From Aphrocallistes beatrix (Eukaryota; Porifera; Hexactinellida; Sceptrulophora; Aphrocallistidae): a stretch of 64,000 bases of DNA. The notes beneath the pieces were generated by a model. That model was not told where the DNA came from. It ran no database searches and saw only the letters and a list, made by a program, of their open reading frames with translations. Below, in pieces: positions 4,601-58,401 of this stretch (positions within the stretch are counted from its first letter, which is position 1; the number at the start of each line of letters is the position of its first letter). Where the stretch lies: contig OY725506.1 of assembly GCA_963281255.1 (NCBI GenBank), positions 2,709,001 through 2,773,000 on the forward strand, given 5' to 3'. Both the position numbers and the translations under genes were made by a program.

Positions 4601-7600
4601 AAGCTAATATACGAAATATTTTCGGTTAAGACTGTACCTATTAAAATCCAGTTGAATTCGATAAATAGTAACAACTCAGGCATTATCGATCTTTCAACCA
4701 TAAATTCCCGAATTGAACCAATATTACCTAAAATAACCACTGTAATTCCATTCTAATTGAATGAGAAATACAGTCGACTCCGCTTAATAGGATCACATCG
4801 GTCAGAGGACATTTTGCCCCGATTAAGCGGAGAACCCTAATAACCGAAAACACTTTGTATTAGCTTCTATGTGTGAGAGCTATTCCAGTCCGGCCAAAAG
4901 TGGCCCGATTAAGCGGTTGACCCGATTAAACAGTGACCATATTAAGCGGAGTCGACTGTACTTATAATGGAATTGCACTAGGCATAGAGAAGCTGTCCTT
5001 AACACAGGACAGAGAATCCAATCAGCGGAGAAGAAGAATGTACCAAGAAATTAAGAAGACACTCACTGCTTCCACGAGTTCAGGTTTTGGCCATCATGAG
5101 ATGGATCCTGAGAGAGAATGGGAGAATAAGAAGAGAGAAAGAGAGATGCAGAGGATTGAGGTAGGGTAGCGGTTTTAAACCTTTTTTAGCTGTGGAGCCC
5201 CTATAGCAATTTTCCTATATTCTATGGACCAGGGGCGGATCCAGGATTTTCTAAGGGGGGGGGGGGCACAGAACCTTTGGCAGGTTTTCACCCAACGAAA
5301 CATTTTTGAACTTTGATCCTAATATCGATTACAGTATAATATTTAATAACATATATTTTTCATCATTATTTTTACCAAATATATCATCCAACTTCCGTAT
5401 TTGCGGGTTTGAATGCGAAAATATTTAAGTATTAACTTTTCAACTGCCCACTGCTGTGGACCCCCTCCTATTAACCGTAATACAAATTTTCGAATCCTGT
5501 GGACCCCCTGATATCTTCTGTAGACCACTAAGGGGTCCATGGACCCCAGGTTGGGAGCCACTGAGGTAGGGTATAATCAGACCCAAGGGATTATCTAGGA
5601 ACGCGAGACGCTCCTTTAAGCGTATGATTTTAAGCCCAAAAGTGTTTAGGAGCATGAAAATTTCGAATACTACCCAATTTACCCTAGATTATAATTTATA
5701 ACCGCGCTTCGCTTGCTTGCACTGCGCAGCTGGCAGACACAAAGTGTCCGCTGGAAGCGCCCTTTGGCCGCCTAAGCTCACATTAATTAATTATAAGGTA
5801 GATAACAACTCTAAATACGTCTGTCTTACTGTTATAATCGATATCACTCGAAAAATCACAAAATTTGTCAATTTTTACATTTTTTGATGTGTAATGACGT
5901 CATAACACAGCGATGAGTTATCATTTTTTATGAGAGTTTTATCATATTTGAGATATATTAATATACACTTTCTATTAAAATTTCAGCCTAGCTTAAAATC
6001 ATACGCCTAAAGGAGCGTCTCGTGTTCCTAGATAATCTCTTAATCTCGACTGTTGAGGCAATAATTTAGAATTTCTCCCGAAATTGAACACAAAATCTTG
6101 AATTCTCATCGAGTTGACTGAATAGGATCGCCTCGTGATTTTAATGTGAAACTTCAATTGGATCGACTGCAATAGGATTGACTAGTGACTAGATACGTAG
6201 CTAAAAGGCCTGTTGCGTGAAATTCTGAGGCACTTATATAAAAAGAACCATGGATGTACAACTTGCGTGAAATTCTGAGACATCCGCTTAGAACAAAATA
6301 GAACCTAATCATCATGTTTTGTGAAATATCATTCTGTAATAGGAACTACAAGGTGCATAATATTAGATCAGAGCTTGCTAAGGCTTCTAAGCGAATGTCT
6401 CAGAATTTCACGCAAGTTGTACATCCATGGTTCCTGTTATATAAGTGCCTCAGAATTTCACGCAACAGGCCTACATTCGCTCTCATTTGACCGGAATCTT
6501 TTCTGAAAATGTCAATCTTATTCTAGTCGATCCTATTCTGGTTTCCCTTCTCATCCATTGTTTCATTAAATCCTACTTTTCAAGGTTGAACGTGCACGTA
6601 GAGAATTGGATTCGAGAAGAAGACAGGATAGCTTATCATCTCAGCGCAACACAAACGGACTAAAGAAATCGAGCGTATCTAGCTACCTCCCTGATTCCCG
6701 TTCAGTTGGTAGTCTCTCCATTGAAGGTGTAGACCCCCGGGATATCCCAATTCCACCGGTTGTTCCACCACCACCGAGTGATGCACCGGTTTCTAGGTTA
6801 GTCCGTGTGCAGAATCTGGTGCGGCCGTTCACTCAGACACAGTTGAAATCTATGCTAGAGTTGTATGGACCTTTGATAGTTACGTCAGGTAGGTTCTGGT
6901 ATTTCTTTGATACAGTCTTGGTCGTTTATTATGAACATTCGTTTATTATGAACAAACCTCCTGGTCCCAATTTCATTTTTTAGATAGGATTTGTATTGAA
7001 TCAAGTTCGCTTAATATGAAGTACAGTCAGGGTCGCTTATTGTGAACCACCAGGGGACCAAAAGTCTGTTCATAATAGAGATACTTCACATTAAGCGAAA
7101 TTGATTCAATACAAATCCTATCTAAAAACTGAAATTGGGACCAGGAGGTTAGTTCATAATAAACGAATGTTCATAATAAGCGACCCTGACTGTATTCTCC
7201 TTATTTCTTTATAAATTGGTGAGTTTGTTGTAGCTACAGTGGAATTTTCTTATTAGCAACTCGAGTTTTGCTCATAAAATGGTTGCTAATACGCGAACTT
7301 GCTAATAAGGAACATAATTAACACACAATCTTCACCTGAAACCTGAAGATTGGTTGTTAATACTCCCTTATTAGCAAAATTGCTCTATTAGCAACCAATC
7401 TTCAGGTCCCAGGTGAAGATTGTGTGTTAATCTTCACCTGGGAGCTGAAGATTGGTTGCTAATAGAGCAATTTTGCTAATAAGGGAGCTGCTAATAAGCA
7501 AATTCCACTGTAATTCTAGTGCGGTACTGGATCAGCTATTTAGCTTATATTATATTCGCTCTGCTGGACTCGTTTATTTGTATTTTAATTCGTTTAGACA

Positions 7601-21369: not shown

Positions 21370-24300
21370 ATGTCTCCTTTCACCTACTTTCTCGCGATTC
21401 TTCACACCATTTCTCTCCTCACTCCTCTTCTCCATTCTACTTCCACCAATATCATTTTACCCAGTCCTCCACCCTTTTCTAACTCAATGAATACTTCCAC
21501 TTTATCCAATACCCTTCTCTCCTCTACCAATATACCCGTTGTATCCAATATTGTTCCCTCTACCAATACACCAGCTTTACCCAGTATTGTTCTCCCTTCT
21601 ACGAGTGCACCCGTTTTATCCAATACTCTTCTCTCTACACCTCAACTACCAAATACTCTTGCCCCTTCTCTTTCCACCGACATACCCATTCTATCCAGTA
21701 CCCTTCCCTCCTCTGCCAATAATAATCCACCTGTTGTGACACTTTCCCGCGATTTCTTCACTTTCATAGAAGGTTCCCCACCTCTTCTTATTGGTGATTC
21801 CATTACACTAACTGATGCTGATAGTAGTAACCTTTCTCGAATAATGTTTATTATAACAGATGTCCCAGACGAAAACAGGTTCCACAATGAATTAATTTTC
21901 GAGAATAATCTTGGTTTTATAATAACAACTCAACGAATGATTACTGTAAATTCGTATAGCTTTACATACACTCTGGAAAATAATGCTTCTATCAGCGATT
22001 ATCAAACAATTGTCAGTTCTGTGAGATATAACAATACTTTTGAAGGAGATTTCGTGAGTATTGTAGGAAATCGAACCATTGAAGTCTTCGCAACTGATTC
22101 ACAAGGTGCTGTTTCGCAATCTGTACGGCTAACGATAGCGATAGAAGCGCGAGATCTCTCCTCTTCCAATACACCCGTTTTATCCAATACTGTTCCTTTC
22201 TCTACCAGTATACCCACTCTATCCAATACCCTTCTCTCCACACCTCAACTTACTGATACCCTTGTCCCTTCTCTTTCTACCAACATACCCACTCTATCCA
22301 GTATCCTTCCCTCCCCTACCAGTACACCTATGTTACCCAGTACTCTCCCTTCCTGCGGCAATGGAATGCTCGATTTTCGCGAGGAATGTGACCACAATTC
22401 GGCTGGTTGTAATCCTAACACGTGTATGATATATCCTCTCTTTAACTGTGAAGTTAACGACACTATAGTTGGTATTACGAACTGTAGCTACGTCTTGTTA
22501 GATACAAACACATCCAATCCATTCTCTGTTGATTCTGAATACTCAACCAATCAGGATATATTCAGGTTAAATATGGAATTTGTCAATGTTGGCATCATCT
22601 ATACATCTACTGTGGTAGAGTACCGATTGTCTTTTTCACGGCTAGATAACCCGGAAATTAACTCAAATACTAACCCGATCACTGTGAACATTGAACGTTT
22701 AACGGAAATCTTCAATCTCACATCTCTAACAATCGAACCCAACATTACTCTGACAGAGAACGCAACAGTATTTGTCAATACTTATTCCATAACTCAGGAT
22801 TTTCTTGCGGAGAAAAGCAACACTGATTTGAGAGAATGTATTCTTGGTTTTATCAATGCAACTCAAGTCGATATCAGTGATAGACCTGTAGGTAAGTTAT
22901 CTTATATATTAAAATGCTAGGATTTTTTTTTTTGTGTTTGTCCAAATTGATTGAAGAATTGGGAAGTCATAGAGATGTGAAAATTGGCATGTAGGTGTCA
23001 AATGATATGACTACGATTAAGTTCTAAGATCTAAGCGAAATTTTCACATCTCTGCAAAAAAAATGGAAAACAATTTTTCACACCTTTTCTATACAAAATA
23101 AATGACTACACTATCACAATAGAAATCATTGTACAAGCGTACTTGTGTACTGTAAACAGATAGGAGCTACAAGTAAAGGCCCCATATACGATGCATCAAA
23201 GTTGCATTCAATTTTGTTGCATCGTATATGAGGGCTGTTACGTATATTCGTGAGATTCTTATACTACATAACCATGGATGGTTTTGTAGCGTAGAATTCT
23301 GAGATTATCCGTAGAATCGTGAGACTTTGTTTCGCTTATTCAAACGACCATATGGTTCAGTCGGTTTCATCATAACTTGATAACCATCGCCACTAAATAA
23401 TGTCACGCGACACAATTTACTTGGTAAAACTCAATATGTACCATGGATGAATTTTATTTTGCATTTATGATCCATATGGGATTTTACCATAGTAAATTGT
23501 GTCGCGTGCTACAATTTGTGGCAGTGGTTATCAAGTTACGATGAAACCGATTGAACCAAAAGGTGATTTGAGTAAATGAAACGAAATCTCACAATTCTAC
23601 GGATAATCCTAGAATTCTACGCTACAAAACCATCCATGGTCATATAATATCAGAATCTCATGGATATACGATCTCGAGAATCTACGCAATAGGGCCCTTA
23701 ATTTAAACTACAGGTACAGAATAATTATCATCACAGTCAAATTCGTTTTTTTATGCAATTGATTTCATTACCTAGGCAACACAAATGTCTATATTTTATA
23801 CTATAAATCAGAAGAGTTGCTTGGTCCACTGGTAGAGTACACATTTTCGTGAATTTTTTTTGAAAATCTTGTCTTTTTAACGTAGATTTTAGATAGTTTT
23901 CGTCCTGTATTTATAAGGGCATCCCCTTATACATACGGGGCGAAAACTATCTAAAATCTATGTTAAAAAGACAACAGATTTCAAAAAATTCACGAAAATG
24001 GCTGAACATTTTTTGATGATTTGTCATTATATTATGTTGTTTTGTAATTCGAGTGTGCACCGCTGGTGGTGCACACTCGAATTCTCCAGAAGCCCAAAGC
24101 CACACCCTCGAACTCCCACTGCTATAAATAGAATATAGGCCTGTTGCATGAAATTGTGAGGCGCTTATATAACAGGAACCATGGATGTACAACTTTCGTG
24201 AAATTCTGAGACATCCGCTCAGAAGTCTTAACAAGCTCTGATATAATATTATGCAACTTGTAGTTTCTATTGCAGAATAATTTCACAAAACATGATGATT

Positions 24301-27277
24301 TTGTTCTATTTTGATTCCAAATCCTATTCTATTTCTAGGAAGTTAAGTGTTAATAACCGTAAGCAAGAATCATTCTATAAAATAGAACAAAATCATCATG
24401 TTTTGCGAAATATCATTATGCAATAGGAACTACAAGTTGCATAATATTAGAAAAGAGCCTGCTAAGGCCTCTGAGCGGATGTCTCAGAATTTAACGCAAG
24501 TTGTATATCCATGGTTCCTGTTATATAAGCGCCTCGTAATTTCACGCAACAGCCCAAATCAAAAAATTTTTTAGTTAGAATTTATGTCTCCATTTGTTCT
24601 TGTAGGTGGTCGAGTTAGAGTCCAGATTGAAATTCTTGCCAGGAATACAACTACCACTCCTGGTCCACCTGAAACTACCGCACCGCCAGTTATTTCTTTT
24701 TTAGATCCTGTCACCTTAGGTTCAGCTACTATCACTATCACTTCACTAGGAACAGATGACTCACGTCCTGTAGTAACTCTAGGCGTTTATAACGCAGTGT
24801 TTTACGAGGGCAATGATTCTATTCCAATCGTCAGTTCTGATTCTACTGTCTCGGATTCAGATGATGTAATCTATCCCATACTAGGATTGACTGTATCTCT
24901 TTCCTTTTTCGGATTTTCAGACCTCAGTTTTGAATCCATTTCCGTTTCTTCTTTACCGAATAACTTCACTTCCAACTATAATCCGAGTATTTTTCAACTG
25001 ACAATCACAGGCCCTGGACTCAGTAGTGAATATACTGGAATATTACGGAGTATCGTATACCGGAATACGATACCGGAACCCACCACGGGAATGCGTCAGG
25101 TTACCATTATGGCAAGAGATACGGTTGCTTATGGGGCATCAGTTTCTCAGTCCATTTTTGTAGAAAATGTAAATGATCTCCCGATTTTAACCTTAACACG
25201 TTCCCAATTGAATTACATTGAGAATTCACCACCATTAGTGTTAGACGATGCACTAAACTTAACTGATATGGATCCGAATCCAAGTATACAATCTGCTTTT
25301 GTATCTTTGGCTAGCATTGATAATGACGAGCGAATCTCATTCGGAGGGGTACAGAATATTTTCGCGGTTAATAACACCTTTTTAGTGGTGAATACTAGTC
25401 AGTCTGTTGAGGATATGCGTGATATATTCCGCACGGTTACCTACCAGCATCTATCAGATAATCCAACTTCCGGTATACGTGTGATTACATTCTCTCTGAC
25501 AGATAATAACAACGGAAGTATTTCCAGAACTTTTTCTGTTATAGTTCAACCTGTTAATGATCCACCTGTTGTGACACTTTCCCGCAATTTCTTCACTTTC
25601 ATAGAAGATTCTCCTCCTCTTCTAATTGGTGATTCCATTACACTAACTGATGCTGATAGTAGTAACTTCTCGCGAATAATGTTTATCATAACAGATGTCC
25701 CAAACGAAAACAGGCTCCACAATGAATTAATTTTCGAGAACAATCTTGGTATTTTGATATCAGCTCAACGAACTGTTACTGTAAATTCGTATAGCTTTAC
25801 TTATACTCTGGAAAAAAATGCTTCTATCAGCGATTTTCAGACAGTCGTGAGTTCTGTGAGATATAACAATACTTTTGAAGGAGATTTCGCGACTTTTGTA
25901 GGAAATCGAACCATTGAAATCCTCGCAACTGATTCTCAAGGTGCTGTTTCGCAATCTGTACGGCTAACCATAGCGATAGAAGCGCGAAATGATCCACCAA
26001 TTTTGAATTTAGGCAGTGGTCTGGGGCAAAATTGGACCTTTTCGTTCACAGAATTCAACAGTTCCTCACCAACCAACCCTACAAATGAGGAGCACATTGT
26101 ACTACTCCCGATTGCAGACATCTCTGATGAAGAAAACAATCGAATTTCAAAGCTAACCATCCAACTTGCTGTATCAAATGGGCAACTCGACCCAAACGAA
26201 TTCATTTTCGTTCGTTCACCGTTATTCACACTTTTTGATAACACAACTTTCAACATCAAATGGTATACGACTGGAACTTATATGGAATTCAATGGCGAAG
26301 CGAGTGCACTGAATTACACTAATATTTTACGCGGCATTTTCTATACAAATGATGAGAATGAGCCTACCCTATTCAACTTGGGTGGTCGATATTTACGATT
26401 TGAGTTGAGCGATGTTTTAGGCGCGACTAGTGTGTCATTTACGGTTATTGACACAATTCCGATCAATGATAACAAGCCTGTCCTACTTCTAAGATTGCAT
26501 CCAGCTGATGCGGCTCTTCTAGCCAGTATCTTAGAGCGTGATACTCGCGAAATTTCGACGTTTGCGACATTAAATGCAACTGCATTTATTGAGAAAGAGT
26601 TTAGTTCTGAGTTGGATACACTGGTGAGTGGTGATGTGGTTCATGTCGTGTTTGGAAGTGAGGTTGAAACGCGAAATTTAGCACATCAAAGTCAGATTAA
26701 TTCGATACTACATTTCAATTGGGAAATTCTCAATAAATTACCAAAAATTTCGTATTGGATTGACGCTAAAACGCTTGCAATACTTTTCCCACGTATTGAT
26801 GACGAATTTAAAACTAAACTAACACCTTTAAAACACTCTAACATATCAATTATTTTCAAAGACTGCTCTGTATCTGAGAAAAAATGTATTAATTTATGCG
26901 CAAATACTGAACAATTGACTTGTGCCAGAGGAAGAACAGGTGTCAAAATCATTGACACAAATCAAGAGGCCATGGGAGATGATGATGCCGCGATTATTGC
27001 ATTTTCACTTTGGTATTTTGCATATTTTTTCGCATCTCTACTCATATTTGCTGTCATTTTAAAACTAACTTTGTACTTCTGTGCTAATTCTAGTGACAAA
27101 AAACGCGATTTGTCTCGTGTTAAGGCTTCTAAAAACGGTTTTAAGAAAGTTGCAGCGAGGAAAACAGATGAAGAACAGATTAACTCACTTAAAAACCGCA
27201 AATATCGTTCACAAAAGCAGAAAATCAACCCAAGATCTACTCCAAACATTTTTAAATACGTAATCGGTGAAAATTGA
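21370..27277 (+). CDS. Large type I membrane protein with mucin-like and cadherin-like repeats
   Basis: Two exons, 21370-22891 and 24606-27277, join in phase 1 and give about 1,397 residues. A signal peptide (about 1-24) is followed by Ser/Thr/Pro repeats of the form LSNTLLSSTNIPVLSN. A beta-sandwich repeat (PPVVTLS...FIEGSPPLLIGDSITLTDAD) comes next, then more mucin-like repeats and a Cys cluster starting CGNGMLDFREECDHNSAGC, similar to extracellular 'CGDG...EECDDGN' repeats. Exon 2 has several further cadherin-like repeats with DxD and NDxPP linkers (VNDLPILTL, VNDPPVVTL, RNDPPILNL). One transmembrane segment (IIAFSLWYFAYFFASLLIFA) and a basic tail end the protein. Many N-glycosylation sequons. 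It is probably a cell-surface adhesion or matrix protein; the family is not firmly identified. Confidence 0.8.
23228..23700. mobile_element. Foldback family I, full copy, in the intron of the cadherin-like gene
   Basis: Long arms: GTAGCGTAGAATTCTGAG and GGTTCAGTCGGTTTCATC at left pair with inverses at right; the ends read AGGGCTGTTACG and CGCAATAGGGCCC. Confidence 0.75.
23848..24083. repeat. Two nested-scale hairpins (long arms, then a 16-bp perfect stem)
   Basis: Arms around TTTAGATAGTTTTCG / CGAAAACTATCTAAA extend over about 60 nt each (23848-24000). Then 24046-24083 is a perfect 16-bp stem, AATTCGAGTGTGCACC, with a 6-nt loop. Confidence 0.7.
24138..24553. mobile_element. Foldback family H (copy 2)
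   Basis: AGGCCTGTTGCATGAAATTG at left and TTTCACGCAACAG at right. It ends about 50 nt before exon 2 of the cadherin-like gene. Confidence 0.75.
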
Positions 27278-46435: not shown

Positions 46436-49180
46436 ATGGAAAATTCAACGTTAAACTTGCCAAATTTGATCCTCGAATTGAGTATGACTGTTGAAAATAA
46501 CTCAAACAGCATTCACGAACAAATTTCAGATATTTTAACGACATTTTTCGCAAAACCAAAGACCAACTCTAAAATGTTAGTTAAAAAGTCTGCGCTTCTT
46601 CACAGCTTTCTCGATAGTTTCCGCGCTTTGAAAGATTTTGAGATACACCAAGAATTAATAAAAATTCTAATACAAATTACTCAAGTTAAATTTGGTACCA
46701 GAAAAATCATAGAATTTTCGGGAACAGAAGCAGTTCTTGAATCCATTTCTCTATTCACTGATGCCATCCCTGAAAATTTCATCCTACACTTCATCTTACT
46801 CGCGAAATTATCTGAAAAAGATGCGAAATTCAGCACTAAATTCCGTTGTTTCCATTTAATCCCTTTTCTAATAGAAAATTTGAAATATTTCTCTACAAAT
46901 TGGGATCGATTACTTCCGGTTTTAACAGTCTTCCATCGGTGTGCAGTTAGCCCCACTACTTGTATTGTAATGCGGAAAAATTTCGCAATGAAAGCACTCA
47001 TCCATTTATTGGACACTGCGACTTGTCCGTTGCACCCAATTTTCTCAATTTGCCTTGAGTCAATTCGACTTTTGTTGAAAAATAAAGGAATTCTCCTTTC
47101 CAGTTCTTACCAATTCTGTGTGAATGGTTTGATTCGTTTCTATCAAATTTTGTCTCAAGACAGCCAGAATGTGAATGAAATTTTCGCAGTTTTGTCGCTC
47201 TTTAAAGAAATCAGTAACAATCCACGCGGATATTCGGTTATTAGCAGCTCGAAATTATTCGGAATTCTCAGTGAAACACTTGTGAATATTCGCGAAGTAT
47301 ATACTGAATCAGTTGTAAGAAATAAATTTGTTAAATTGAATTTGGAGCTGATCCAATGTTTCGTTCGAAAAAAAGTAATTCTGTATCCCAATCAAATTGT
47401 TTTCACACCATCAGATGAGTTCAGAAATCAACTACCTTTACAAAACCGAAACTTCACACCTATTTCAGAAGAATATCATATTATTGATAAACTGAACCTT
47501 TTCTCAGATATAGCACCTCAAAAATTGCGAAATTTCACGCTCAATATTAGATCTCTAATTGATTTAGAATATTTGCTGCCTTATTCATATGAACAGGAGT
47601 ATATGATGAATGAACTTTTGGAAGAAATCTACTTTTTACCTCAAATTCGCGAGCAGATCAACTCAGAAATCTCACAATTCTGCGAAAAATTATCGAAAAA
47701 TCCAAACTACAATGCCTACACCAATGAAAGCTACTCAATTTCACCGAAATTTCACACCTTTACAAATCCAGACATATACGAATGTTCTCAATGTATCCAC
47801 GAGAAAGAAGAAGATTTAACTATTTCGGTCGCTTTGGATAAACTCCATTTGATAGAAAACCCAGGAAATTCCGAAGAAATTGTAATATTCAGCAATGAGT
47901 TGGCATTTATAGATCCATTATTGAACCTAGACAGGAAACCTGTTCACACTGCGGTTTTTAACACCAACCATCTACATTTCTCGGCTGCTTTCGAGAGTAG
48001 CAACCTTTTAAAAGCCACCATGGTAAACAACGTGACGTATAATTTAACACTTCGCCCTGATACGAATACGAACAGACACATACAGTGGTTCCTTTTCAAT
48101 GTCAAAAATATGCAAACAAAGTTTGTATACACATTTAACATTATAAATTGCGATAAAAACAACTCACAATTCAACAATGGAATGCAACCTCTCTTGTTGT
48201 CAAGAAAATCAAATCGCGGCTGGTTGAGAACTGGGTCGATGATATCATACGGTGAAAGTGATTTCCTGAGCAAAAATTCCGCGAAACTTTACACTTTAAC
48301 GTTCAAGATTGAGTTCCCATTCGAAAACGACGATTGTTATATTGCTTATCATTACCCATACACTTACACTGATCTCTTAGAAGATATCCAAATATGGTCA
48401 AAACCCTTCTACAACAATATCTATTTCCGTGTGGATACACTCTGTCATACATATTCAAGGCTACCCTGTCCCTTATTAACCATAACGGATGGAGATTCTG
48501 CGGTTTTTAACAAGAAATATGTTGTATTGACATCTCGTGTGCATCCTGGAGAAGCAAATGCTAGCTGGATCATGAAAAGTATCATCGATTTTCTTTTAAG
48601 TTCCCAGCATTTAGCCATTGATTTACGCAGTAAATTCGTATTTAAAATCGTTCCAATGTTAAACCCAGACGGCGTGGCCTATGGGAATACAAGATGCAAT
48701 GTTTTAGGCTTCGATTTAAACCGACAATGGTTGGATCCTTCTCCAAATTTACACCCAACTATTTTCTACACCAAAAAGATGATGGAAAAGTTGATTAATT
48801 TCGGGCGAAAACCTGTGCTTTTCTGTGATTTTCATGGACACTCGCGGAAAAAGGATGTATTCATGTATGGCTGTAATTCTGAAAGCAAAATTGAAACCAT
48901 TTTACCGACACTTTTCGCGGAAAATTACACCGGCTTTGACTTGAATAGTTGTTCGTATGGGATCGAAAAGAGTAAATTAAGATGTGGACGAGTTGTGGTT
49001 GGGACAAATTTGGATATTCCGTGTGCATACACACTTGAATCAACATTCTGCGGTTATAGCGAAGGTGTGAAAAGCGATTTCCAAGTCACACTCAACGATT
49101 TTGAAGAAATCGGGTACAACTTTTTGAAAAGTTTACAAGACTTCTTCGGAGTTCTCAGTGATAAAGATACACTGTTGTAG
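46436..49180 (+). CDS. AGTPBP1: Cytosolic carboxypeptidase 1-like tubulin deglutamylase
   Basis: A single uninterrupted frame of 914 residues. The C-terminal half is an M14 metallocarboxypeptidase of the CCP group. Zinc ligands are H703 and E706 in RVHPGEANASW and H800 in CDFHGHSRKKDVFMYGC; the catalytic glutamate is E868 in YTLESTFCG. The CCP N-domain precedes it (FESSNLLKATMV, HIQWFLFNVKNM, FNIINCDKNNSQFNNGMQPL). The N-terminal half is alpha-helical and ARM-like, with a match to CCP1 around RCFHLIPFLIENL. Homology is closest to vertebrate AGTPBP1/CCP1, which is longer (about 1,200 residues). Known role: removal of glutamates from tubulin and other proteins in the cytosol. All catalytic residues are present, so it is likely active. 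It is intronless, unlike most genes here. Confidence 0.92.
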   Translation: MENSTLNLPNLILELSMTVENNSNSIHEQISDILTTFFAKPKTNSKMLVKKSALLHSFLDSFRALKDFEIHQELIKILIQITQVKFGTRKIIEFSGTEAVLESISLFTDAIPENFILHFILLAKLSEKDAKFSTKFRCFHLIPFLIENLKYFSTNWDRLLPVLTVFHRCAVSPTTCIVMRKNFAMKALIHLLDTATCPLHPIFSICLESIRLLLKNKGILLSSSYQFCVNGLIRFYQILSQDSQNVNEIFAVLSLFKEISNNPRGYSVISSSKLFGILSETLVNIREVYTESVVRNKFVKLNLELIQCFVRKKVILYPNQIVFTPSDEFRNQLPLQNRNFTPISEEYHIIDKLNLFSDIAPQKLRNFTLNIRSLIDLEYLLPYSYEQEYMMNELLEEIYFLPQIREQINSEISQFCEKLSKNPNYNAYTNESYSISPKFHTFTNPDIYECSQCIHEKEEDLTISVALDKLHLIENPGNSEEIVIFSNELAFIDPLLNLDRKPVHTAVFNTNHLHFSAAFESSNLLKATMVNNVTYNLTLRPDTNTNRHIQWFLFNVKNMQTKFVYTFNIINCDKNNSQFNNGMQPLLLSRKSNRGWLRTGSMISYGESDFLSKNSAKLYTLTFKIEFPFENDDCYIAYHYPYTYTDLLEDIQIWSKPFYNNIYFRVDTLCHTYSRLPCPLLTITDGDSAVFNKKYVVLTSRVHPGEANASWIMKSIIDFLLSSQHLAIDLRSKFVFKIVPMLNPDGVAYGNTRCNVLGFDLNRQWLDPSPNLHPTIFYTKKMMEKLINFGRKPVLFCDFHGHSRKKDVFMYGCNSESKIETILPTLFAENYTGFDLNSCSYGIEKSKLRCGRVVVGTNLDIPCAYTLESTFCGYSEGVKSDFQVTLNDFEEIGYNFLKSLQDFFGVLSDKDTLL

Positions 49181-50044: not shown

Positions 50045-51184
50045 ATGCAGCTTTTAATAGTATTTCTACTCAATTCAGTCTTAATTTTCGCACAAGATTG
50101 CCGGCATAGTATAGTGTGGCAACCGGATTTCTGTGTTTTACGAAACCGAATCCCTAATTCGCAGATTTTGCCACCAAATAACGTTGGATGTACAATCAAA
50201 CTGAACAGCATCATTACACTCATACAAAATGGCTTATTTACACTTGAAACTTTGTACGAAGTTAGAACAGAAGTGGAATTGAAGAATTGTAACATTTCAC
50301 AAGCAACTCGAGTCATGACTCTCTCTCCCTCGGCACAATTCACTCTAATTTCACCTCACTATACTCTCGGTACGAAATATTATCTACTTTCTCCGATAAA
50401 CGGCTTAGGATCTTGCTTACAATTCGCTTTCACACTATTGAGCGCAAATTCTCTCCAAACATGCGATTTACCTGCAATTTGTTCGCAAAGTATTCTAAAT
50501 GATACAACACAAATGGATATAGGATGTGACCTTATTCCGGAAGTTACACAATCTCCACAAACTACCATTACTTCAATGACGACAGCTTCAAATTCAATTT
50601 CTTCGACTCTGGCCACAAATACTAACGATTTGAATACCAAATATAATGCTATGACAACAAATAACATTCTTTTGACTACGAACACATATCTTGTAACTCC
50701 AACGCCTATTATAAACACAAAAACTTCAAATGGAACAACAACATTTCCCTCTACCACTCCAACGAATAGTGCAGTTATAATTCCTGAAGTTCTTTCCACA
50801 CTCCATTTGGTCCTGATTTCTATCGCAGTTTTCTTGCTTCTTCTGACAATGATAATTCTGGTCTGCATATTTGTGATGGTTTTTTACCTAATTCGGTATT
50901 GTTACATGAAAAAACGAAGAAAGGTTTATAAATGCAAAGAAGTTAACAGCCTACAGCCTGTATATATAAACCTCAAACCACCGAAATTACCGAAAAAACG
51001 CGATATTATTCCTTTAAAGAAGGGAAAATATGTTCCTCCCAAAAACCCAGATCCTCATGTGGAGCCTTATAAAGATAAAGTAGAGGCAAACCTAGCTAGT
51101 ACCCTCGAGAATCTAGTAAAAGCGAGGCAGAGAGATGTAATTGATTATAATGAAATTGACAAATGTGAAATAACTAGTCTATAA
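50045..51184 (+). CDS. Ephrin-like type I membrane glycoprotein 1
   Basis: 379 residues, no intron. Signal peptide about 1-17 (MQLLIVFLLNSVLIFAQ). The ectodomain (18-165) has eight cysteines in the order shared by all four paralogues. It matches the ephrin pattern: an early Trp (SIVWQPDFC), a hydrophobic strand after the third Cys, YEVRTEVELKNC, a YYLLSP strand and a SCLQFAF strand. A Ser/Thr-rich stalk (about 166-250) follows, then a transmembrane helix (about 255-284), the stop-transfer KKRRK and an 86-residue tail with PPKLPKK. The tail ends ITSL, a class I PDZ-ligand pattern. It is the most diverged member. Ephrin assignment is inference from pattern; surface location is well supported. 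Confidence 0.75.
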   Translation: MQLLIVFLLNSVLIFAQDCRHSIVWQPDFCVLRNRIPNSQILPPNNVGCTIKLNSIITLIQNGLFTLETLYEVRTEVELKNCNISQATRVMTLSPSAQFTLISPHYTLGTKYYLLSPINGLGSCLQFAFTLLSANSLQTCDLPAICSQSILNDTTQMDIGCDLIPEVTQSPQTTITSMTTASNSISSTLATNTNDLNTKYNAMTTNNILLTTNTYLVTPTPIINTKTSNGTTTFPSTTPTNSAVIIPEVLSTLHLVLISIAVFLLLLTMIILVCIFVMVFYLIRYCYMKKRRKVYKCKEVNSLQPVYINLKPPKLPKKRDIIPLKKGKYVPPKNPDPHVEPYKDKVEANLASTLENLVKARQRDVIDYNEIDKCEITSL

Positions 51185-51298
51185 GAGTATACACATGTGT
51201 TGTTTTCTTTTTTTAATTTATTTACAATACAAGTATATCAAACTATTTACACGAGCCGGTTTTATGCAGAATTTTTTCTGGAGTGGAGGGGTATATTC

Positions 51299-51660
51299 AG
51301 GGTTGCCGTGGGAATGGAATTTCAATTCCCACCCCATTCCCACAGAAACCCACAGGAAATCCCACAGATGCTCACATGTGGGAATTCCCATAGCTTTAAT
51401 TAACCCGGGAAATACTTGGGGTCAAAGGTATAAATAGAAATGACCCAGCTTTCATTTTCAGTTTACTTTCAATTAACTTTCACTTTCACTTCAACATTCC
51501 TGGACGTGCACGGGTTAAAGTAATTCCCATTCCCATCCCATATGGAAATCTGCGAGTTTTCCCATGGGAATTCCCACAGATTCCCATTTATCCCATGACC
51601 CTGTTTCGCTAGCAACCATGGTTCATTTCCAATATACCCAGGGTTGCGGTATATTGGAAA
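51299..51660. repeat. Family E repeat cluster with a GAAAGTGAAAG segment
   Basis: GTTGCCGTGGGAATGG units at both ends. The middle (51410-51505) is the reverse complement of 63833-63930, including TTGGGGTCAAAGGTATAAAT, so it is a separate repeat. Confidence 0.6.
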
Positions 51661-51754
51661 TGAGCGATGGTTGCTAGCGGTACAGGGCATAGACAGGATT
51701 AAAAAGGGGGCGTTCTAACAGCCCCCCTCAGGGGGATAGAAAAGTATTAATATC

Positions 51755-51890
51755 AGGGTTGCCGTGGGAATGGAATTTTAATGCCCAATCCCACCGAATT
51801 TCTAGGGGAATACCCACAGAAACCCATAGAAATCCACAGGAAATACCCATAGGCTTCAAGTAATTCCCATTCCCACGGCAACCCTGCGTA
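51755..51890. mobile_element. hAT-like family E (copy 3)
   Basis: CAGGGTTGCCGTGGGAATGG at left and its exact inverse at right. Confidence 0.75.
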
Positions 51891-51967
51891 TTATACAGCC
51901 AGTCCAAAACGGACTTAGTTGGCAATAACTTTATTCTGATAATGAATGGTAATTGGGAGAAGAAATA

Positions 51968-52392
51968 AGGACTGTTGCATGAAATTCTGAGGCACTTATA
52001 TAAAAGGAACCATGGATGTACAACTTGCGTGAAATTCTGAGACACCCGCTTAGAAGCCTTAGCAAGCTCAAATCTAATATTATGCAACTTGTAGTTCCTA
52101 TTACAGAATGATATTTCACAAAACATTATGATTTGGTTCTATTTTGTCTCAATAATAATAACTCGATAATGTATACAGTGATCCTAGAAATAGAATAGGA
52201 TTTGGAATCAAAATAGAACGAAATCATCATGTTTTGTGAAATATCATTCTGTAATAGGAACTACAAGTTGCATAATATTAGATCAGAGCTTCTAAGCGAA
52301 TGTCTCAGAATTTCACGCAGTGCCTTAAAATTTCATGCAAGGTGTACATCCATGGTTCCTGCTATATAAGTGCCTCAGAATTTCACGCAACG
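51968..52392. mobile_element. Foldback family H (copy 3)
   Basis: GACTGTTGCATGAAATTCTG at left and GAATTTCACGCAAC at right; same internal hairpin as 24138-24553. Confidence 0.75.
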
Positions 52393-52727
52393 AGACAAAT
52401 ACCTAACATTGAAACAAACTAATAAAACACAATTGGAAAGTTGCAACTTTCTTTGAAACTCATTGAACAACTAGTTTCAACATAATTAACTATTATCTGC
52501 GGACAAAAGTGGTTTTCAGATCTGATGACATAAGTTTCTATTCTAAAGAAACTAAAACTAATTCTTGTTCATCAATAAATATTCAAATAAATTCACAAAA
52601 TTTGGCTCATAAGCGAAATAGCACATGTTAGTTTCAGGTTCGGGCGATCACAATGAGATCCAAAATACCGTTTGGGAGTACGAAAGTTTTGAGGTTTGGG
52701 AATAATTAAGACTTATTCTTATAGTCT

Positions 52728-52736
52728 TATATAAAA
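52728..52736 (+). promoter_or_regulatory. Possible TATA box of ephrin-like gene 2
   Basis: TATATAAAA 42 nt before the start codon; implies a very short leader. Sequence and position only. Confidence 0.3.
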
Positions 52737-52769
52737 AGCTTTTTTTGATGTGATTATTGAATTTGAAAA

Positions 52770-53474
52770 ATGTGGATTTTGAAACTTTTCATCGGAGCTT
52801 TTGCGGTTACTTTCGCCTTTTCGCAGACTTGTGAATATAAAATTATCTGGGATCGCGACTTTTGTAACGAGACTGACTCAGATCGGCTTCAAAATTCGAT
52901 TCTGCCTCCAAGCGATGTAAATAACTTCTGTGAGTTCGAAATGGGTAGTGTTCTGAATTTAGAACATTTGAATGGTGATCTGTACGAGAATCTGTTTCAG
53001 GTAGAAAGAGAGGTCGAATTCGCGACATGTGACGCTTCAAATTCGCAGTCTATAGCGGTCGTAATTAACTCTATCTATAATTTCACTCTGGATCCTGGAA
53101 ATTTCGCGATAGGAGATGAAGTATATTTTATCTCAACTTCTTCCGGTACGAATGAGAGTGCAATAAATTCTCGCAAAATTTCACACCCTTGTTTAAAACT
53201 TGCATTTAAAATCGTGGCAAGCACTAATCAATGCGGAACTAACTCTAGGTGTGAAAATAGCGTTTTGAGCCAAAATCAAGCCAATTTTGGTTGTGGTTTC
53301 GGTAAAAAAGTTAATAATACGGTCCTAATCATAATCTATATTACAGTCCCGGTTATTTTGGTGTTACTTATTATTTGCTTCTTAGTCGCTTGTTGTGTGT
53401 TGAGTGACAGGAAAAGAGCCATTTCTGCTCAGAAGTCCGCTGCTAATAAGGTAACGGAGATGACTTCCATTTAA
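52770..53474 (+). CDS. Ephrin-like type I membrane glycoprotein 2 (compact)
   Basis: 234 residues, no intron. Signal peptide about 1-19. The Cys-rich ectodomain shows the ephrin-like order most clearly: KIIWDRDFC, GSVLNLEHL, ENLFQVEREVEFATCD, NFAIGDEVYFISTSSG, PCLKLAFKIV. Unlike its paralogues it has almost no Ser/Thr stalk; the transmembrane helix (IIIYITVPVILVLLIICFLV) follows the domain directly. The cytoplasmic tail is about 25 residues and ends MTSI, a PDZ-ligand pattern. It lies between paralogues 1 and 3 on the same strand, separated by repeats. Ephrin homology remains to be tested by structure. Confidence 0.78.
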   Translation: MWILKLFIGAFAVTFAFSQTCEYKIIWDRDFCNETDSDRLQNSILPPSDVNNFCEFEMGSVLNLEHLNGDLYENLFQVEREVEFATCDASNSQSIAVVINSIYNFTLDPGNFAIGDEVYFISTSSGTNESAINSRKISHPCLKLAFKIVASTNQCGTNSRCENSVLSQNQANFGCGFGKKVNNTVLIIIYITVPVILVLLIICFLVACCVLSDRKRAISAQKSAANKVTEMTSI

Positions 53475-53596
53475 TTCCTGTTTTTGGGGATGTATTTGTG
53501 TTCTATTATCACAATTATTATCTCAGTGTATTTCTTGTATATTACTCTATGTAAGTATATAACCTTTGTTCTGATAATTGTAATATTATTGTAAAA

Positions 53597-53602
53597 ATTA
53601 AA
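53597..53602 (+). terminator. Candidate polyadenylation signal of ephrin-like gene 2
   Basis: ATTAAA 123 nt after the stop codon. Confidence 0.35.
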
Positions 53603-53628
53603 CTTTTACTATAGTTCTGCATAGTTTT

Positions 53629-53866
53629 CAGGGTCGCCGTGGGAATGGGAATCTGTGGGAATTCCCAATGGGAAAACCCACAGATTCCCATATAGGATGG
53701 GAATGGGAATGACTTTAAGGCTATGGGAATTCCCACATGTGGGAATCTGTGGGATTTCTGTGGGAGTTCCTGTGAGATTCCGTGTGCGTTTCTGTTGGAT
53801 TCTGTGGGAATTCCCACAGAAATCCTGTGGGAATAGAATTGAAATTCCATTCCCACGGCAACCCTG
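53629..53866. mobile_element. hAT-like family E (copy 4)
   Basis: CAGGGTCGCCGTGGGAATGG and inverse. Target duplication ATAGTTTT (53621-53628) / ATAGTTTG (53867-53874). Confidence 0.82.
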
Positions 53867-54108
53867 ATAGTTTGGGTTGGGTTGGGTTGGGTTGACAATT
53901 TTAACCCATGTGGAACTTTAGTGGGAACGTACCTCTTAGCATTGGATCAGTTACGCCTATGTATAGAGTTTCTGCGTTTAGTACATGTCTCAATGAATAT
54001 CTATTGTTCTGTCATTTAATAAAATCTAAAGAAGCCTTTCTTCATTGAGCACAATGAGCCTTCTATTGTATTTAAATAGTACATTTGACCATTCAGATAT
54101 TGTGTGTT

Positions 54109-55137
54109 ATGTGCATTAAAAATTTCAGTTTTCTGCTTTTAATTTTTTTGTTCACTGGAGTATATGGAACGTGTACTCGTGACGTAATATGGCAGTCGAA
54201 TTTCTGTCCTTTGAATATGAGTTTAAATGGCGCAATCTTACCTCCTGATAATGCCACCTGTCGCTTTCAAGCGGGTGATACTCTGAGTTTGATCAATTCC
54301 GACGCGAATAGGACAGAGAATATCTATCAGGTAAGGACGAGGGAAGATTGGGAGAATTGCAACGCGACCAATGCATTTAATTCTATGCCTCGCCTCGTGA
54401 ATGACTCCAACACTGTACAGTTGGTTACTGGGAACTTTTTCACATTCAACGTAGGCCAAATTATTTACCTCATTTCCACTTCAAATGGAAGTGAGGATAG
54501 CGCGAACAATGATATAATAGGCACATCGCCTTGCTTGCGTATGTCTTTCCTACTAGTCCCTCCTACCTCTGAATGTACACTACTTCCTGCTTGTAATGAC
54601 AGTGTACTGAGCAAGAATGTATTAAATTTTGGCTGTAATGCTGACTCAATAATCACAACTACAGAAATATCGCCTTCTACAAGTGTTAACCCAAAAGGAT
54701 CAACAACAACAACAACAAAGTCATCTACAATCTCTTCTGTTGTGATGACGGATAACACAACTTTTTTAAGAAATAAGATTGGTTCCAATTGCTTGTCATC
54801 CAAATCGGGAGATTTCTGCTTAGATTTTGTATTGTTCCCTCTCCTCGTATTACTTATTATCGCGGTTGCAATTGCAATGCTAATTCTTTTCCCGTTAATC
54901 TACTGTGTTGTTAAACCCCCCACTTCGAAATTGAAGTCTCAACACATCCAATTGGAAGACATTTCTAAAGTTAGTAGTACAACAATTCCCAACACTGAAG
55001 AAATTACAGTGCAGGATGAATCTAACATTCCAAATGTTTGCTTTCCAATGGATGTGGTTAGTAATAAACCTGTAGACTCGCGAACAGGATTTTCTCCAAT
55101 CAAAGAAAGAGATTCAAAGTTTATAACCTATATTTAG
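54109..55137 (+). CDS. Ephrin-like type I membrane glycoprotein 3
   Basis: 342 residues from the ATG at 54109, which gives a normal signal peptide (MCIKNFSFLLLIFLFTGVYG); the frame is open further upstream but has no earlier ATG. Ectodomain: RDVIWQSNFC, FQAGDTLSLIN, ENIYQVRTREDWENCN, GQIIYLISTSNGSEDSA, SPCLRMSFLLV. It has a Ser/Thr-rich stalk, a membrane-proximal Cys pair (NCLSSKSGDFC), a transmembrane helix and a tail of about 80 residues ending ITYI. The ectodomain DNA (54172-54608) is about 97% identical to that of paralogue 4, while signal peptide, stalk and tail are unrelated. Confidence 0.78.
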   Translation: MCIKNFSFLLLIFLFTGVYGTCTRDVIWQSNFCPLNMSLNGAILPPDNATCRFQAGDTLSLINSDANRTENIYQVRTREDWENCNATNAFNSMPRLVNDSNTVQLVTGNFFTFNVGQIIYLISTSNGSEDSANNDIIGTSPCLRMSFLLVPPTSECTLLPACNDSVLSKNVLNFGCNADSIITTTEISPSTSVNPKGSTTTTTKSSTISSVVMTDNTTFLRNKIGSNCLSSKSGDFCLDFVLFPLLVLLIIAVAIAMLILFPLIYCVVKPPTSKLKSQHIQLEDISKVSSTTIPNTEEITVQDESNIPNVCFPMDVVSNKPVDSRTGFSPIKERDSKFITYI

Positions 55138-55734
55138 ACCTCTATACCTAAAGTTACCGGTTATTTATACAGTTGATAATTGTTTATTACGCGATGAATT
55201 CAATAGCTCACCTTTTCGATCATGTCTCAAAATCGATCGTTGTATTTAACCAAGTAATAAGCCGAGGAATTAGCATACTGACTAAAAATCTCGCGAAAAA
55301 CGTCACCTATTTGCTAACCCATTCAAAAAGTATTTTCAGAAAAATGAGCCAGTCGGTTTAGTCGAAATATTTTTCCAACCAAATCAGACTATTTTTTTCG
55401 ATTCTCCGGGTTATCTTGGGAACTTTGTTCATTTCGCAAAATTAACAATTTGTTAAAATCGATACATCATGTATAGTATTGTATACCTAGAAATATAGTT
55501 ACGTATTTAATGAGACATTTTTAAAAATCTGCCATCACTTCCAAATTTGAATAGAAAAAGCTCTACTTGATGTATTGTAAGTTATCTCATTCGATTCTTT
55601 GTTAGATCATGTCTACCGAAATAATTCATCCATTAAGTGTACAATAGTCCTATTAGAATTGATTTTAAATTCACGTTTATGGCCTCTATTACAGTTTTTC
55701 CCTGTCACTGCTGAAAAAATGTCGTCCAGGACCA

Positions 55735-56082
55735 GGGATTTTCTAGGATTTCCAGTCTGACACGTTTTTGAATGTGATAAAAGAGATATGGCACCCACAC
55801 AGGGGTTTATCTTGTAATTCAAGAGGTGGTGGTAACCCGACACCAAAATCGAATCATATTACAACAGTGGTTCCCAACCTGGGGTCCATGGACCCCATAG
55901 TGGTCCACAGAAATATCAGGGGTCGACAGGATCTGAAATTTTGTATTACAGTTAATAGGAAGGGGTCCGTCCACAGCCAAAAAGGATTGAAAACCGCTGC
56001 ACTACAAGCACCTTGGTTCCTCGGATGATACCAGGCTAGCTCCTATTAATTGCCGGTCGAGCACCTAGATAAACCCCTGAGG
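55735..56082. mobile_element. Family J element (copy 3) carrying hAT-like family F
   Basis: J starts CAGGGATTTTCTAGG and ends CTAGATAAACCCCTG. Family F (55865-55999, tips CAGTGGTTCCCAACC and GAAAACCGCTG) interrupts it; flanks TATTACAA (55857-55864) and CACTACAA (56000-56007) are the degenerate duplication. Confidence 0.8.
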
Positions 56083-56087
56083 CCTCA

Positions 56088-56851
56088 TTCACTGAAGTTC
56101 TAAACTGAAATTCTTAGAATTTTTCTTAGAATTCGCCGTAATTCTTAGAATTTCACTTAATTCTAAGAATTATTCTAAGAAATTTTCAATTTTAAGTCGA
56201 ATTATTTAATTGGTATTCACTAAAGTTCTAAATTCAAATTCTTAGAATTTATACGAATTCTAAGAGAAATTTTAAGTGAGGTATGGAGTTGACTTAAATT
56301 CATTCTAAATCGTTAAAGTTCGTATTTTTATAGATATACATTGTTTACAATGTTAATCTCTCGCTAATTGATGATGAATAGAATGGCTGTCTCTTAAGGT
56401 ATAGTTTACATTGTTGGACATCGTTAGTTTCAGAAAAAACATTGGCTTAATTTATGAAATGGTTCGGTGCACGCCCTAACATCTTCGCTCTTCAGCTCCC
56501 ACCAATGTTGTAATTTTCTGAAGGATTTTATAATATTAACATCAACTTTGATTAATGTTTCAAGAAAATTTCTAAGTTACTTTCTTAGAATTATTTTAGA
56601 ATGACACCAATTCTAAGTATATTTCTTAAAATCCGTAAAGAATTTCAAGGTTAAGAATTCTAAGAAAAAAATGCGATTCTAAGATTTGATCAAATTCTTA
56701 GAATAATTCTTAGAATCCGTAAAGAATTTGATGCCACATAATTCTTTATGAATTCTAATAAGAATTTCATAGCAATTCTAAGAAAAATTGAAATTGGGAC
56801 CAGGAAGTTAGTCCATAATAAACGAATGTACATATTAAGCGACCCTGACTG
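56088..56851. repeat. ATTCTTAGAATT-rich foldback region with a MITE B fragment
   Basis: GCCTCATTCACTGAAGTTC is followed by many copies of TTCTTAGAATT or TTCTAAGAA in both orientations. A MITE B right end lies at 56787-56851. 56852-57306 holds a family M fragment and otherwise nothing recognisable. Confidence 0.6.
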
Positions 56852-57306
56852 TATTCTAAATTTTCACACTCCTAATTACTTTCAGACTTAAAATCATACG
56901 CCTAAAGGAGCGTCTATCGCTCCTATATAATTCCCTGGTTGGTGGCTGGCTATAGATAGCACTGTACATAGAACGAAGCGTCTTTGACACTATTATTGAT
57001 TGCCTTAGCATAATTTATTTTATCCGCATTGTGCTAGAGCAAATCAATTGTGTGTAATACAAGTATATATGTGCTTAGTTGTACACAAATATAATGACGA
57101 CAATGGATGTTGTTGACTCGACACTTTATTGTTATTCTACTAATCCAATAATATAATATAACCAAAGTTTACAGGTTATAGAGAATTCATAGTAAGGTAG
57201 TGCATTTTGATAATCTTACATAAAGCTATATTCTCAAATTTCACTGTTATGTACATATATAATGGTTTATATAGCCAGAAATTCTTTTATAATACTATTG
57301 TCTTGA

Positions 57307-58401
57307 ATGTCTCGAATAATTTTTATATTTCTTCTGATCAATGCTTTTTATGAAAGCATATATTGTGTATGTACTCGTGACGTAATATGGCAGTCGAATT
57401 TCTGTCCTTTGAACATGAGTTTAAATGGCGCAATCTTACCTCCTGATGATGCCACCTGTCGTTTTCAAGCGGGTGATACTCTGAGTTTGATCAATTCCGA
57501 CGCGAATAGGACAGAGAATATCTATCAGGTAAGGACGAGGGAAGATTGGGAGAATTGCAACGCGACCAACGCATTTAATTCTATGCCTCGCCTCGTGAAT
57601 GACTCCAACACTGTACAGTTGGTTACTGGGAACTTTTTCACATTTAACATAGGGGAAATTATTTACCTCATTTCCACTTCAAATGGAAGTGAAGATAGCG
57701 CAAACAATGATATAATAGGCACATCGCCTTGTCTGCGTATGTCTTTCCTATTAGTCCCTCCTACCTCTGAATGTACACTACTTCCTGCTTGTAATGACAG
57801 TGTACTAGGCGCCAATAGTAACGTACTAAACGTAGGGTGTAATTCTGGTATAACTTCACTCCCAACCGTAACCAGTACGAGCGTAATGCCATTATCAACA
57901 TCAACAATGACGGATACTATAACCTCATCAATAATGTCGTCAACAGTATCCTCAACAGTTTTCGTGCCAACCTCCACTCCCTCTACCACTACCACACCTA
58001 CTCCTTCAATTTCTACGAATTCGTCAACTCAAAATGATGACTGTTTCATCTCTTCATTAGGAAGTGACTATTGTTTTCTAGGGTATCTGGGAATTATTGT
58101 AGGGTTCGTAGCGCTGGGTTTAGTCATTATTCTAATTATCTTACTGATTGTTGCGATTTGTTACTTGATACAGAAAATATGTTATAAGGATAAAAGTAAG
58201 GTGAGCCCCGACGCAGAAAATACCTTTTATGGAGACCGGAATATTTGTGCTAGGAGCAATTCGGAATCTGGAACTCAATTAATCAATAATGGAACTAATG
58301 ATCAAACAGAACAGAATCCACTGTATCAACCCCCCAATGACCCCCCAAAGGACCCGGATAAAACGCCTACAGATTCGATATACTATGAGACCACGAATTA
58401 A
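57307..58401 (+). CDS. Ephrin-like type I membrane glycoprotein 4
   Basis: 364 residues, no intron. Signal peptide MSRIIFIFLLINAFYESIYC. The ectodomain is almost the same as paralogue 3. A long Thr/Ser-rich stalk contains a DDCFISSLGSDYC pair just outside the membrane, then a transmembrane helix (IIVGFVALGLVIILIILLIV). The tail of about 85 residues is rich in Asn, Pro and Asp and contains YQPPNDPPKDPDK. It ends ETTN, so unlike the other three it lacks a class I PDZ-ligand pattern. Same strand as the others; last of the array. Confidence 0.78.
   Translation: MSRIIFIFLLINAFYESIYCVCTRDVIWQSNFCPLNMSLNGAILPPDDATCRFQAGDTLSLINSDANRTENIYQVRTREDWENCNATNAFNSMPRLVNDSNTVQLVTGNFFTFNIGEIIYLISTSNGSEDSANNDIIGTSPCLRMSFLLVPPTSECTLLPACNDSVLGANSNVLNVGCNSGITSLPTVTSTSVMPLSTSTMTDTITSSIMSSTVSSTVFVPTSTPSTTTTPTPSISTNSSTQNDDCFISSLGSDYCFLGYLGIIVGFVALGLVIILIILLIVAICYLIQKICYKDKSKVSPDAENTFYGDRNICARSNSESGTQLINNGTNDQTEQNPLYQPPNDPPKDPDKTPTDSIYYETTN

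Follow-up and report, generated by a model that had tools for sequence, protein, structure and literature searches.

Results

Four ephrin-like genes in tandem

In the present study we analysed a stretch of 64,000 nucleotides from the hexactinellid sponge Aphrocallistes beatrix (contig OY725506.1, positions 2,709,001 to 2,773,000), hereafter called the window, which corresponds to C20:2709001-2773000 of the 28-contig, 100.5-Mb genome. It carries four genes on the forward strand which, judging from their sequences, very probably encode transmembrane, diverged ephrin-like ligands of the sponge and are predicted to bind Eph receptors. An earlier reading of the same DNA (the original prediction) had proposed such a cluster. 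Within the window the genes and their parts are located as follows.

50045..51184, + strand: ephrin-like gene 1 (379 amino acids), a single open reading frame, more diverged than the other three, with a class I PDZ-type C-terminus (CEITSL)
50093..50554, + strand: gene 1 ectodomain as in alignment A3; without a Pfam match of its own
50828..50884, + strand: gene 1 predicted membrane helix, residues 262-280
52770..53474, + strand: ephrin-like gene 2 (234 amino acids); short stalk, 23-residue tail, C-terminus TEMTSI
52824..53315, + strand: gene 2 ectodomain; Pfam Ephrin 14.2 bits, E 0.044, profile positions 75-140 of 140, below the cut-off
53346..53402, + strand: gene 2 predicted membrane helix, residues 193-211
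54109..55137, + strand: ephrin-like gene 3 (342 amino acids); C-terminus KFITYI
54172..54608, + strand: ectodomain block of gene 3, from the codon of the first aligned Cys (residue 22), stopping before the stalk
54844..54900, + strand: gene 3 predicted membrane helix, residues 246-264
57307..58401, + strand: ephrin-like gene 4 (364 amino acids); C-terminus YYETTN
57370..57806, + strand: ectodomain block of gene 4, 97% identical to the gene 3 block (424/437 nt)
58105..58161, + strand: gene 4 predicted membrane helix, residues 267-285

That the four same-strand genes share a Cys-rich domain, a membrane helix and a tail, as had been proposed, was confirmed by the open reading frames, by eight aligned ectodomain cysteines in each gene and by hydropathy. 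Close to its C-terminus each protein carries a single strongly hydrophobic segment (19-residue mean 3.27-3.53), followed by a tail of 23-99 residues. The signal peptides that had been assigned to all four were supported for three by the hydropathy threshold, and the leader of gene 2 was judged by eye only.

Genes 1-4 resemble each other beyond chance (tblastn, E 7e-10 to 4e-97). Searches with four queries (genes 1, 2 and 3 and one member on contig C15) gave the same list of seven places genome-wide; the members outside the window are L007 and L003 on C15 (321.5 and 325.2 kb) and L005 on C7 (2.188 Mb). The ectodomain of gene 1 shares 21-30% identity with the other six members, and the weakest link in the family is that between gene 1 and L007 (E 0.05 and 0.19). 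The ectodomains of genes 3 and 4 are near-copies, so that the window holds three distinct ectodomains. All seven members consist of one uninterrupted frame, which excludes introns within the coding frame only. A place at C1:119269, found by one query (E 0.95), was rejected as an eighth member, as its sole long frame encodes an unrelated-looking protein of 423 amino acids. Between the two ephrin-like genes on C15 we noted a frame of 131 amino acids (L057:5711-6103, reverse strand) with a leader, the start NIIWDC and an early membrane helix; by eye, NIIWDC resembles the start of the ephrin-like domain, and the frame looks like a family member minus its domain.

Hydrophobic leaders exceeded the hydropathy threshold in five of the seven members, those of gene 2 and L007 being recognised by eye, and all seven have a single strong C-terminal hydrophobic region, in keeping with the membrane anchor of ephrins, which is a helix or GPI. 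We keep the earlier term 'ephrin-B-type' for the topology (membrane helix and tail, 7/7) and not for orthology to vertebrate ephrin-B; by eye, the CLKL strand of gene 2 is closer to ephrin-A5. The stalks of genes 1, 3 and 4 are rich in Ser and Thr (fraction 0.35-0.44; gene 2, 0.09). Pfam matches to TMEM154, Glycophorin_A, PGAP1_TMD and similar families were rejected since they are located on the stalk, helix or tail. A class I PDZ-type C-terminus ([ST]-x-[VIL]) is present in four of the seven ligands, and the probability of at least four by composition is 9e-5. As this motif was picked post hoc and the last residues of genes 1 and 2 are alike, it favours reverse signalling weakly.

Kinship with ephrins

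The Pfam Ephrin profile (PF00812) matched six of the seven ectodomains with E values of 0.0051-0.044, from profile position 50-75 to 127-140 of 140. A profile built from all seven members and searched against the PDB (177,635 distinct sequences) gave 11 matches at E<=10, and all 11 were to ephrin-B2 (E 0.078-0.11). The core match printed comprises 26 residues; the envelopes are 12-138, 11-137 and 67-140 in the three alignments shown. Gene 2 alone gave three chance matches in the PDB (two to myosin-Vc and one to NUJM, E 1.2-1.3), and the family profile was thus needed. In a comparison of hidden Markov models, the kind of check that had been suggested, hhalign aligned the family to ephrin-B2 and ephrin-A5 with a score of 40.7 (probability 87) and to five ephrins with 40.6. 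None of 150 column shuffles in each comparison reached these scores: the null maxima were 20.2 for ephrin-B2 and A5 (mean 11.2) and 21.6 for the five ephrins, and reversed profiles scored 12.3 and 10.6, respectively. Short matches of the ectodomains to Zap1_zf2 and DUF2415 in Pfam were rejected. When the Pfam Ephrin profile was run directly on the genome there were zero matches, and the control also matched nowhere; given the silent control and members which are individually below the Pfam cut-off, this result is no proof of absence.

The alignment features agree with the profile searches. We transferred the numbering of the interface aromatics named in PMC6485061 (W25, F120, Y126 and Y127) onto our joint alignment. 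The strand-A Trp at W25, a Phe or Tyr at F120 and the Tyr at Y127 are present in all seven proteins, and position Y126 holds Tyr in two and Phe in one; three of the four interface aromatic positions are thus kept. Also conserved in 7/7 are the final Val of the YxV-type strand and, within ISTSNG, the Ser and the Gly. The stretch with the Eph-docking G-H loop measures 11, 11, 14, 14, 11, 14 and 17 residues; two ephrins have 16 residues at this place and five phytocyanins 6-7. None of the seven has any of the phytocyanin copper ligands (His39, Cys79, His84, Met/Gln89) at the aligned columns, which is also the case in ephrins, and a Glu stands at His39 in all of them. The proteins therefore resemble vertebrate ephrin-B2 and A5 in the order of strand motifs, the Trp, the Tyr, the STSNG-type stretch, the loop length and the lack of copper ligands. 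They share the membrane helix with ephrin-B, and gene 2 shares with ephrin-A5, by eye, a CLKL strand followed by a Cys. The motifs quoted in the original prediction are all present in the protein of gene 2 (52770). Gene 2 and ephrin-B2 are 24% identical over 114 columns and differ in the extra cysteines and in one missing disulfide Cys.

According to the accessible part of PMC6485061, ephrins have two disulfides, C51-C92 and C80-C140. The Cys before the last strand is present in 7/7, one place off in L003; it falls on the Cys of ephrin-A5 and two columns from that of B2. An equation of gene 2 Cys87 with ephrin C80 was not supported by the alignment, which places Cys87 on the second middle Cys of ephrins. 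Compared to ephrins there are six extra cysteines (gene 2 positions 21, 32, 54, 155, 161 and 175). L003 lacks Cys 32 and 175 together, and L007 lacks Cys 21 and has a new Cys at 57; these changes suggest the pairs 32-175 and 21-54.

Eph receptors in the same genome

The Ephrin_lbd model matched at 15 genomic places and passed its cut-off at 12, at some of them only when frame neighbours were counted. A protein query for the Eph ligand-binding domain found 18 places, which all lie on contig C1 (7.35-10.57 Mb). Two of the 18 are fragments of the domain in short frames (C1:10543842 and C1:8818812), and both show a stop within the frame in one search out of two. One ligand-binding domain searched against the PDB gave 17 matches at E<=0.001, all of them Eph receptors (E 8e-5 to 6.5e-4). 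Among eight receptor frames compared with Pfam, all matched the ligand-binding domain (five over the cut-off), five the kinase and SAM and four EphA2_TM (two over the cut-off); the three frames without kinase and SAM match the ligand-binding domain and the Cys-rich region only. Eph receptors, which the original prediction had suggested looking for, are hence present in this genome.

The six kinase frames that we checked all carry HRD and DFG, and five of them VAxK. The juxtamembrane YxDP and the C-terminal SVxV, both hallmarks of Eph receptors, occur in five and four of the six, respectively. Besides, there are six kinase-less receptor frames of 507-655 amino acids. At E 1e-5 and over the 0.8-4.1 kb of downstream DNA that were covered, kinase sequence was not found in L021, L022, L025 and L028, and in L027 the only kinase sequence at this level belongs to the next gene. 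One Eph-like receptor is broken into two overlapping frames (L024:2357-4522 and 4477-5397). Inside the Eph cluster lies a reverse-strand frame (L023:3643-4569) which by eye resembles a mariner-type transposase.

Ectodomains shared between genes

The ectodomain blocks of genes 3 and 4 differ at 13 codons, and 10 of the differences are silent. Over 145 codons the non-synonymous divergence (dN) is 0.009 and the synonymous divergence (dS) 0.112. The leaders of both genes are equally long, yet 18 of the 20 codons from the Met to the first Cys differ. Beyond short matches at chance level, blastn detected no relatedness between the two genes in the DNA of leader, stalk, helix and tail. A second genomic copy of either tail was not found at significance (six weak matches for gene 4, best E 0.019; zero for gene 3). 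Genes 3 and 4 are separated by 2.2 kb, in which short repeats of the TTCTTAGAAT type form a cluster (window 56109-56745).

Similar patterns were found among the receptors (loci L020, L021, L025-L030 and L053-L056), where we compared dS in eight kinase-bearing genes (28 pairs) and five of the six kinase-less ones. Omitted from the pairs were 9.449 (kinase with HRDIA), 10.525 (broken frame), 10.508 (507 amino acids) and the two fragments; together with the eight and five genes compared, they account for all 18 places. All five kinase-less genes have a kinase-bearing partner at an ectodomain dS of 0.037-0.115. The full-length gene 7.552 shares 1,596 and 1,578 nt at 95.6 and 97.5% identity with two kinase-less genes 0.2 Mb away, and these blocks begin within the leader and stop before the membrane helix. 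In four of the 28 kinase-bearing pairs the ectodomain dS is 0.24-0.27 and the kinase dS 0.40-0.52; six pairs are recent and alike in both halves, and 12 are old in both.

The probable cause of the shared outer halves is gene conversion or ectopic recombination. Alternatively, genes 3 and 4 could stem from an ordinary tandem duplication whose flanks diverged fast or were replaced once, and three of the five kinase-less receptors likewise from a simple duplication in which the 3' half was replaced. Genes 3 and 4 are indeed adjacent, on the same strand and have leaders of equal length. Moreover, the leader belongs to the shared block in three of the five kinase-less pairs, as do 151 nt of upstream DNA in one of them, and such a duplication suffices for these pairs. 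As a general explanation we nevertheless consider it unlikely, as the ligand blocks differ by a dS of only 0.11 and are flanked by DNA without similarity beyond chance. Furthermore, the remaining six of the 28 receptor pairs combine an ectodomain dS below 0.5 (0.295-0.411) with a kinase dS above 2 (2.06) or saturated, and in the pair 7.552/7.556 a near-identical block lies between two saturated regions. In windows of 50 codons this young block comprises the Cys-rich and the next region, with a third-position identity of 96-100% as against 32-50% in the ligand-binding domain. Since the block skips the ligand-binding domain, copying by conversion or recombination would not always equalise ligand specificity.

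Weighing the assignment

Several observations weigh against an assignment to ephrins and their receptors. None of the seven ectodomains reached the Pfam Ephrin cut-off (25 bits; best 17.2), and gene 1 had no match. In genes 3 and 4 the phytocyanin-type profile Cu_bind_like (PF02298) outscored Ephrin with 18.9 and 18.6 bits (E 0.0016 and 0.0019), both below its cut-off of 20.8 bits. A better match to another family, which would have spoken against the original prediction, was thus seen in part: Ephrin is the top match in four of the seven, Cu_bind_like in two, and one has none. In hhalign five phytocyanins also scored 33.4 (probability 69), a value that none of 150 shuffles reached (null maximum 18.8; reversed profile 14.9). 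The strong section of the hhalign alignment covers 50 columns and extends to 114 in a relaxed setting. The Cys corresponding to C51, and with it one partner of the C51-C92 bridge, is missing in all seven, and the middle region has one Cys (7/7) compared to two in ephrins. On the receptor side, the Eph Cys-rich model matched all eight frames, in none of them over the cut-off, the ligand-binding domain was below its cut-off in three, and fn3 was not detected in any of the eight (Pfam, E<=0.01). As all members are below the Pfam cut-off and lack a disulfide Cys of ephrins, we speak of diverged ephrin-like ligands and not of ephrins proper.

The scores in genes 3 and 4 and with the five phytocyanins would fit membrane-anchored, phytocyanin-like cupredoxins which share ancestry with ephrins and serve adhesion, the matrix or another role without binding Eph receptors. 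The seven proteins resemble plant phytocyanins (cucumber basic protein and four others) in strand order, in the YF-type strand and in the lone middle Cys, which aligns with phytocyanin Cys52. They differ from them in the missing copper ligands, the longer loop stretch (11-17 vs 6-7 residues) and the membrane helix with its tail. The ephrin score exceeded the phytocyanin score with the full set and in all four leave-out runs, in which no score rose, the PDB profile search matched ephrins only, and the genome encodes Eph receptors. This explanation is accordingly quite improbable in our view. Ephrins and phytocyanins compared directly scored 19.8 and 15.5, and the hhalign scores hence place the family between the two in sequence, closer to ephrins. 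It is highly improbable that an unrelated, sponge-specific Cys-rich fold mimics ephrin motifs such as the STSNG stretch, as the weak Pfam E values of single proteins and the 26-residue core match in the PDB might suggest, since the hhalign score of 40.7 stands far above the shuffled and reversed maxima (20.2 and 12.3) and the Trp, the Val-ending strand, the middle Cys, the Tyr and the Ser and Gly of STSNG recur in 7/7 in ephrin order. Diverged ephrin-like ligands remain the reading that is backed by the family profile, hhalign, the alignment features and the Eph receptors of the same genome.

Discussion

From the family, its topology, its kinship with ephrins and the accompanying Eph genes we infer a fold, a binding partner and signals in both directions. 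The Cys-rich ectodomain most likely forms a copper-free barrel of the cupredoxin type. Its loop of ephrin length would dock into the ligand-binding domain of an Eph receptor on a touching cell, and docking would trigger the receptor tyrosine kinase as a forward signal. The ligand tail, often with a PDZ-type end, could recruit scaffolds in the ligand-bearing cell and thereby give a reverse signal. The ectodomain of genes 3 and 4 was seemingly copied as a cassette between genes with differing leaders and tails, which would yield two ligands with presumably the same partner and different output; the receptor genes show related patterns.

Ephrins have already been described in sponges. Krishnan et al. 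(2019, PMC6485061) reported, in the part of their article accessible here, 13 ephrins in eight demosponge and hexactinellid species, and the earlier claim of an undescribed set of contact ligands is therefore too strong. A Spongilla ephrin was identified by structure according to the text available from PMC10176882, and sponge ephrins and Eph receptors are also treated in the available text of PMC6993872. The sponge and ctenophore ephrins of PMC6485061 resemble ours, as far as its text was available, in a highly diverged receptor-binding domain that needs sensitive profiles and, in many of them, in a C-terminal membrane helix; Eph receptors co-occur in these animals, with sponge-specific Eph expansions. 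However, the accessible text implies that both disulfides are kept there, whereas one Cys is missing in 7/7 here, and the 13 ephrins are spread over eight sponge species, compared to seven in one genome, four of them in tandem, in our study. The seven genes may be orthologues of some of those ephrins. For the vertebrate ephrin-B C-terminus the passages seen of PMC6993872 give YKV, which differs from the class I ends in 4/7 here.

An ephrin-like class is thus known from sponges; the part worth following is that outer halves are shared among ligands as well as among receptors. The cassette-like sharing in genes 3 and 4 and that among the Eph receptors are apparently new: among the papers listed we saw no previous account of copied ectodomains in Eph or ephrin genes, on a thin basis, as subscription literature was mostly outside our reach. 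By analogy, the shared outer halves resemble paired receptors that are kept alike by gene conversion. Siglecs and CEACAMs belong to the Ig superfamily. Similar outer and different inner halves appear in the accessible accounts of Siglec-11/16 (PMC5701461), where gene conversion is named, of CEACAM (PMC2832619, PMC5112662) and of CD300A/C (PMC12447643). Those receptors belong to vertebrate immunity; here the sharing concerns the Eph/ephrin system on both the ligand and the receptor side, and no activating/inhibitory pair is evident. It is conceivable, if rather doubtful, that Eph and ephrin genes form a paired recognition system in this sponge, with converted outer halves and differing inner halves giving opposite or graded outputs. 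Kinase-less Eph receptors would then be decoys or signalling partners for ligand-bearing cells, and the system could play a part in tissue fusion and in self/non-self decisions of the sponge.

In the available part of PMC6485061 it is left open whether Eph receptors that lack domains are truncated models. If ectodomain copying is confirmed, kinase-less sponge Eph receptors would be real genes and not incomplete models. The kinase-dead Eph receptors, which are related but different, are traced to jawed vertebrates in the accessible text of PMC6993872. Confirmed copying would also let Eph/ephrin join the immune paired receptors as a system whose recognition and signalling halves evolve separately. 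Moreover, ligands and receptors of contact signalling are now available at contig level for a lineage near the base of the animal tree. In the same kind of genome search Frizzled gave three matches and TGF-beta five. Wnt had no match in the genome and the control matched nowhere; as the control was silent, the absence of Wnt is not proven. Glass sponges are described as lacking Wnt in the parts available of PMC10280926 and PMC10282587, which give genome sizes of 61 and 80 Mb and report a large number of single-exon transcripts; the table in PMC10282587 lists 9,872 of 16,340 and 12,409 of 19,578 genes as single-exon.

Other features of the window

Between the genes (window 51300-53850) we observed dispersed GTGGGAATTCCCA-rich repeats together with long inverted repeats, whose arms measure 83 and 72 nt (within 51974-52391); these repeats are possibly mobile elements. 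The window contains no tRNA and no Rfam match at gathering thresholds. Two long single-frame proteins with repeated modules, extracellular by eye, are encoded at 21370-22920 and 24584-27277, the second with a C-terminal membrane helix; neither has a Pfam match at E<=0.001. At 46436-49180 lies a single-frame gene for a CCP1-like cytosolic carboxypeptidase of the M14 type with 914 amino acids, which we take to be a probable tubulin deglutamylase.

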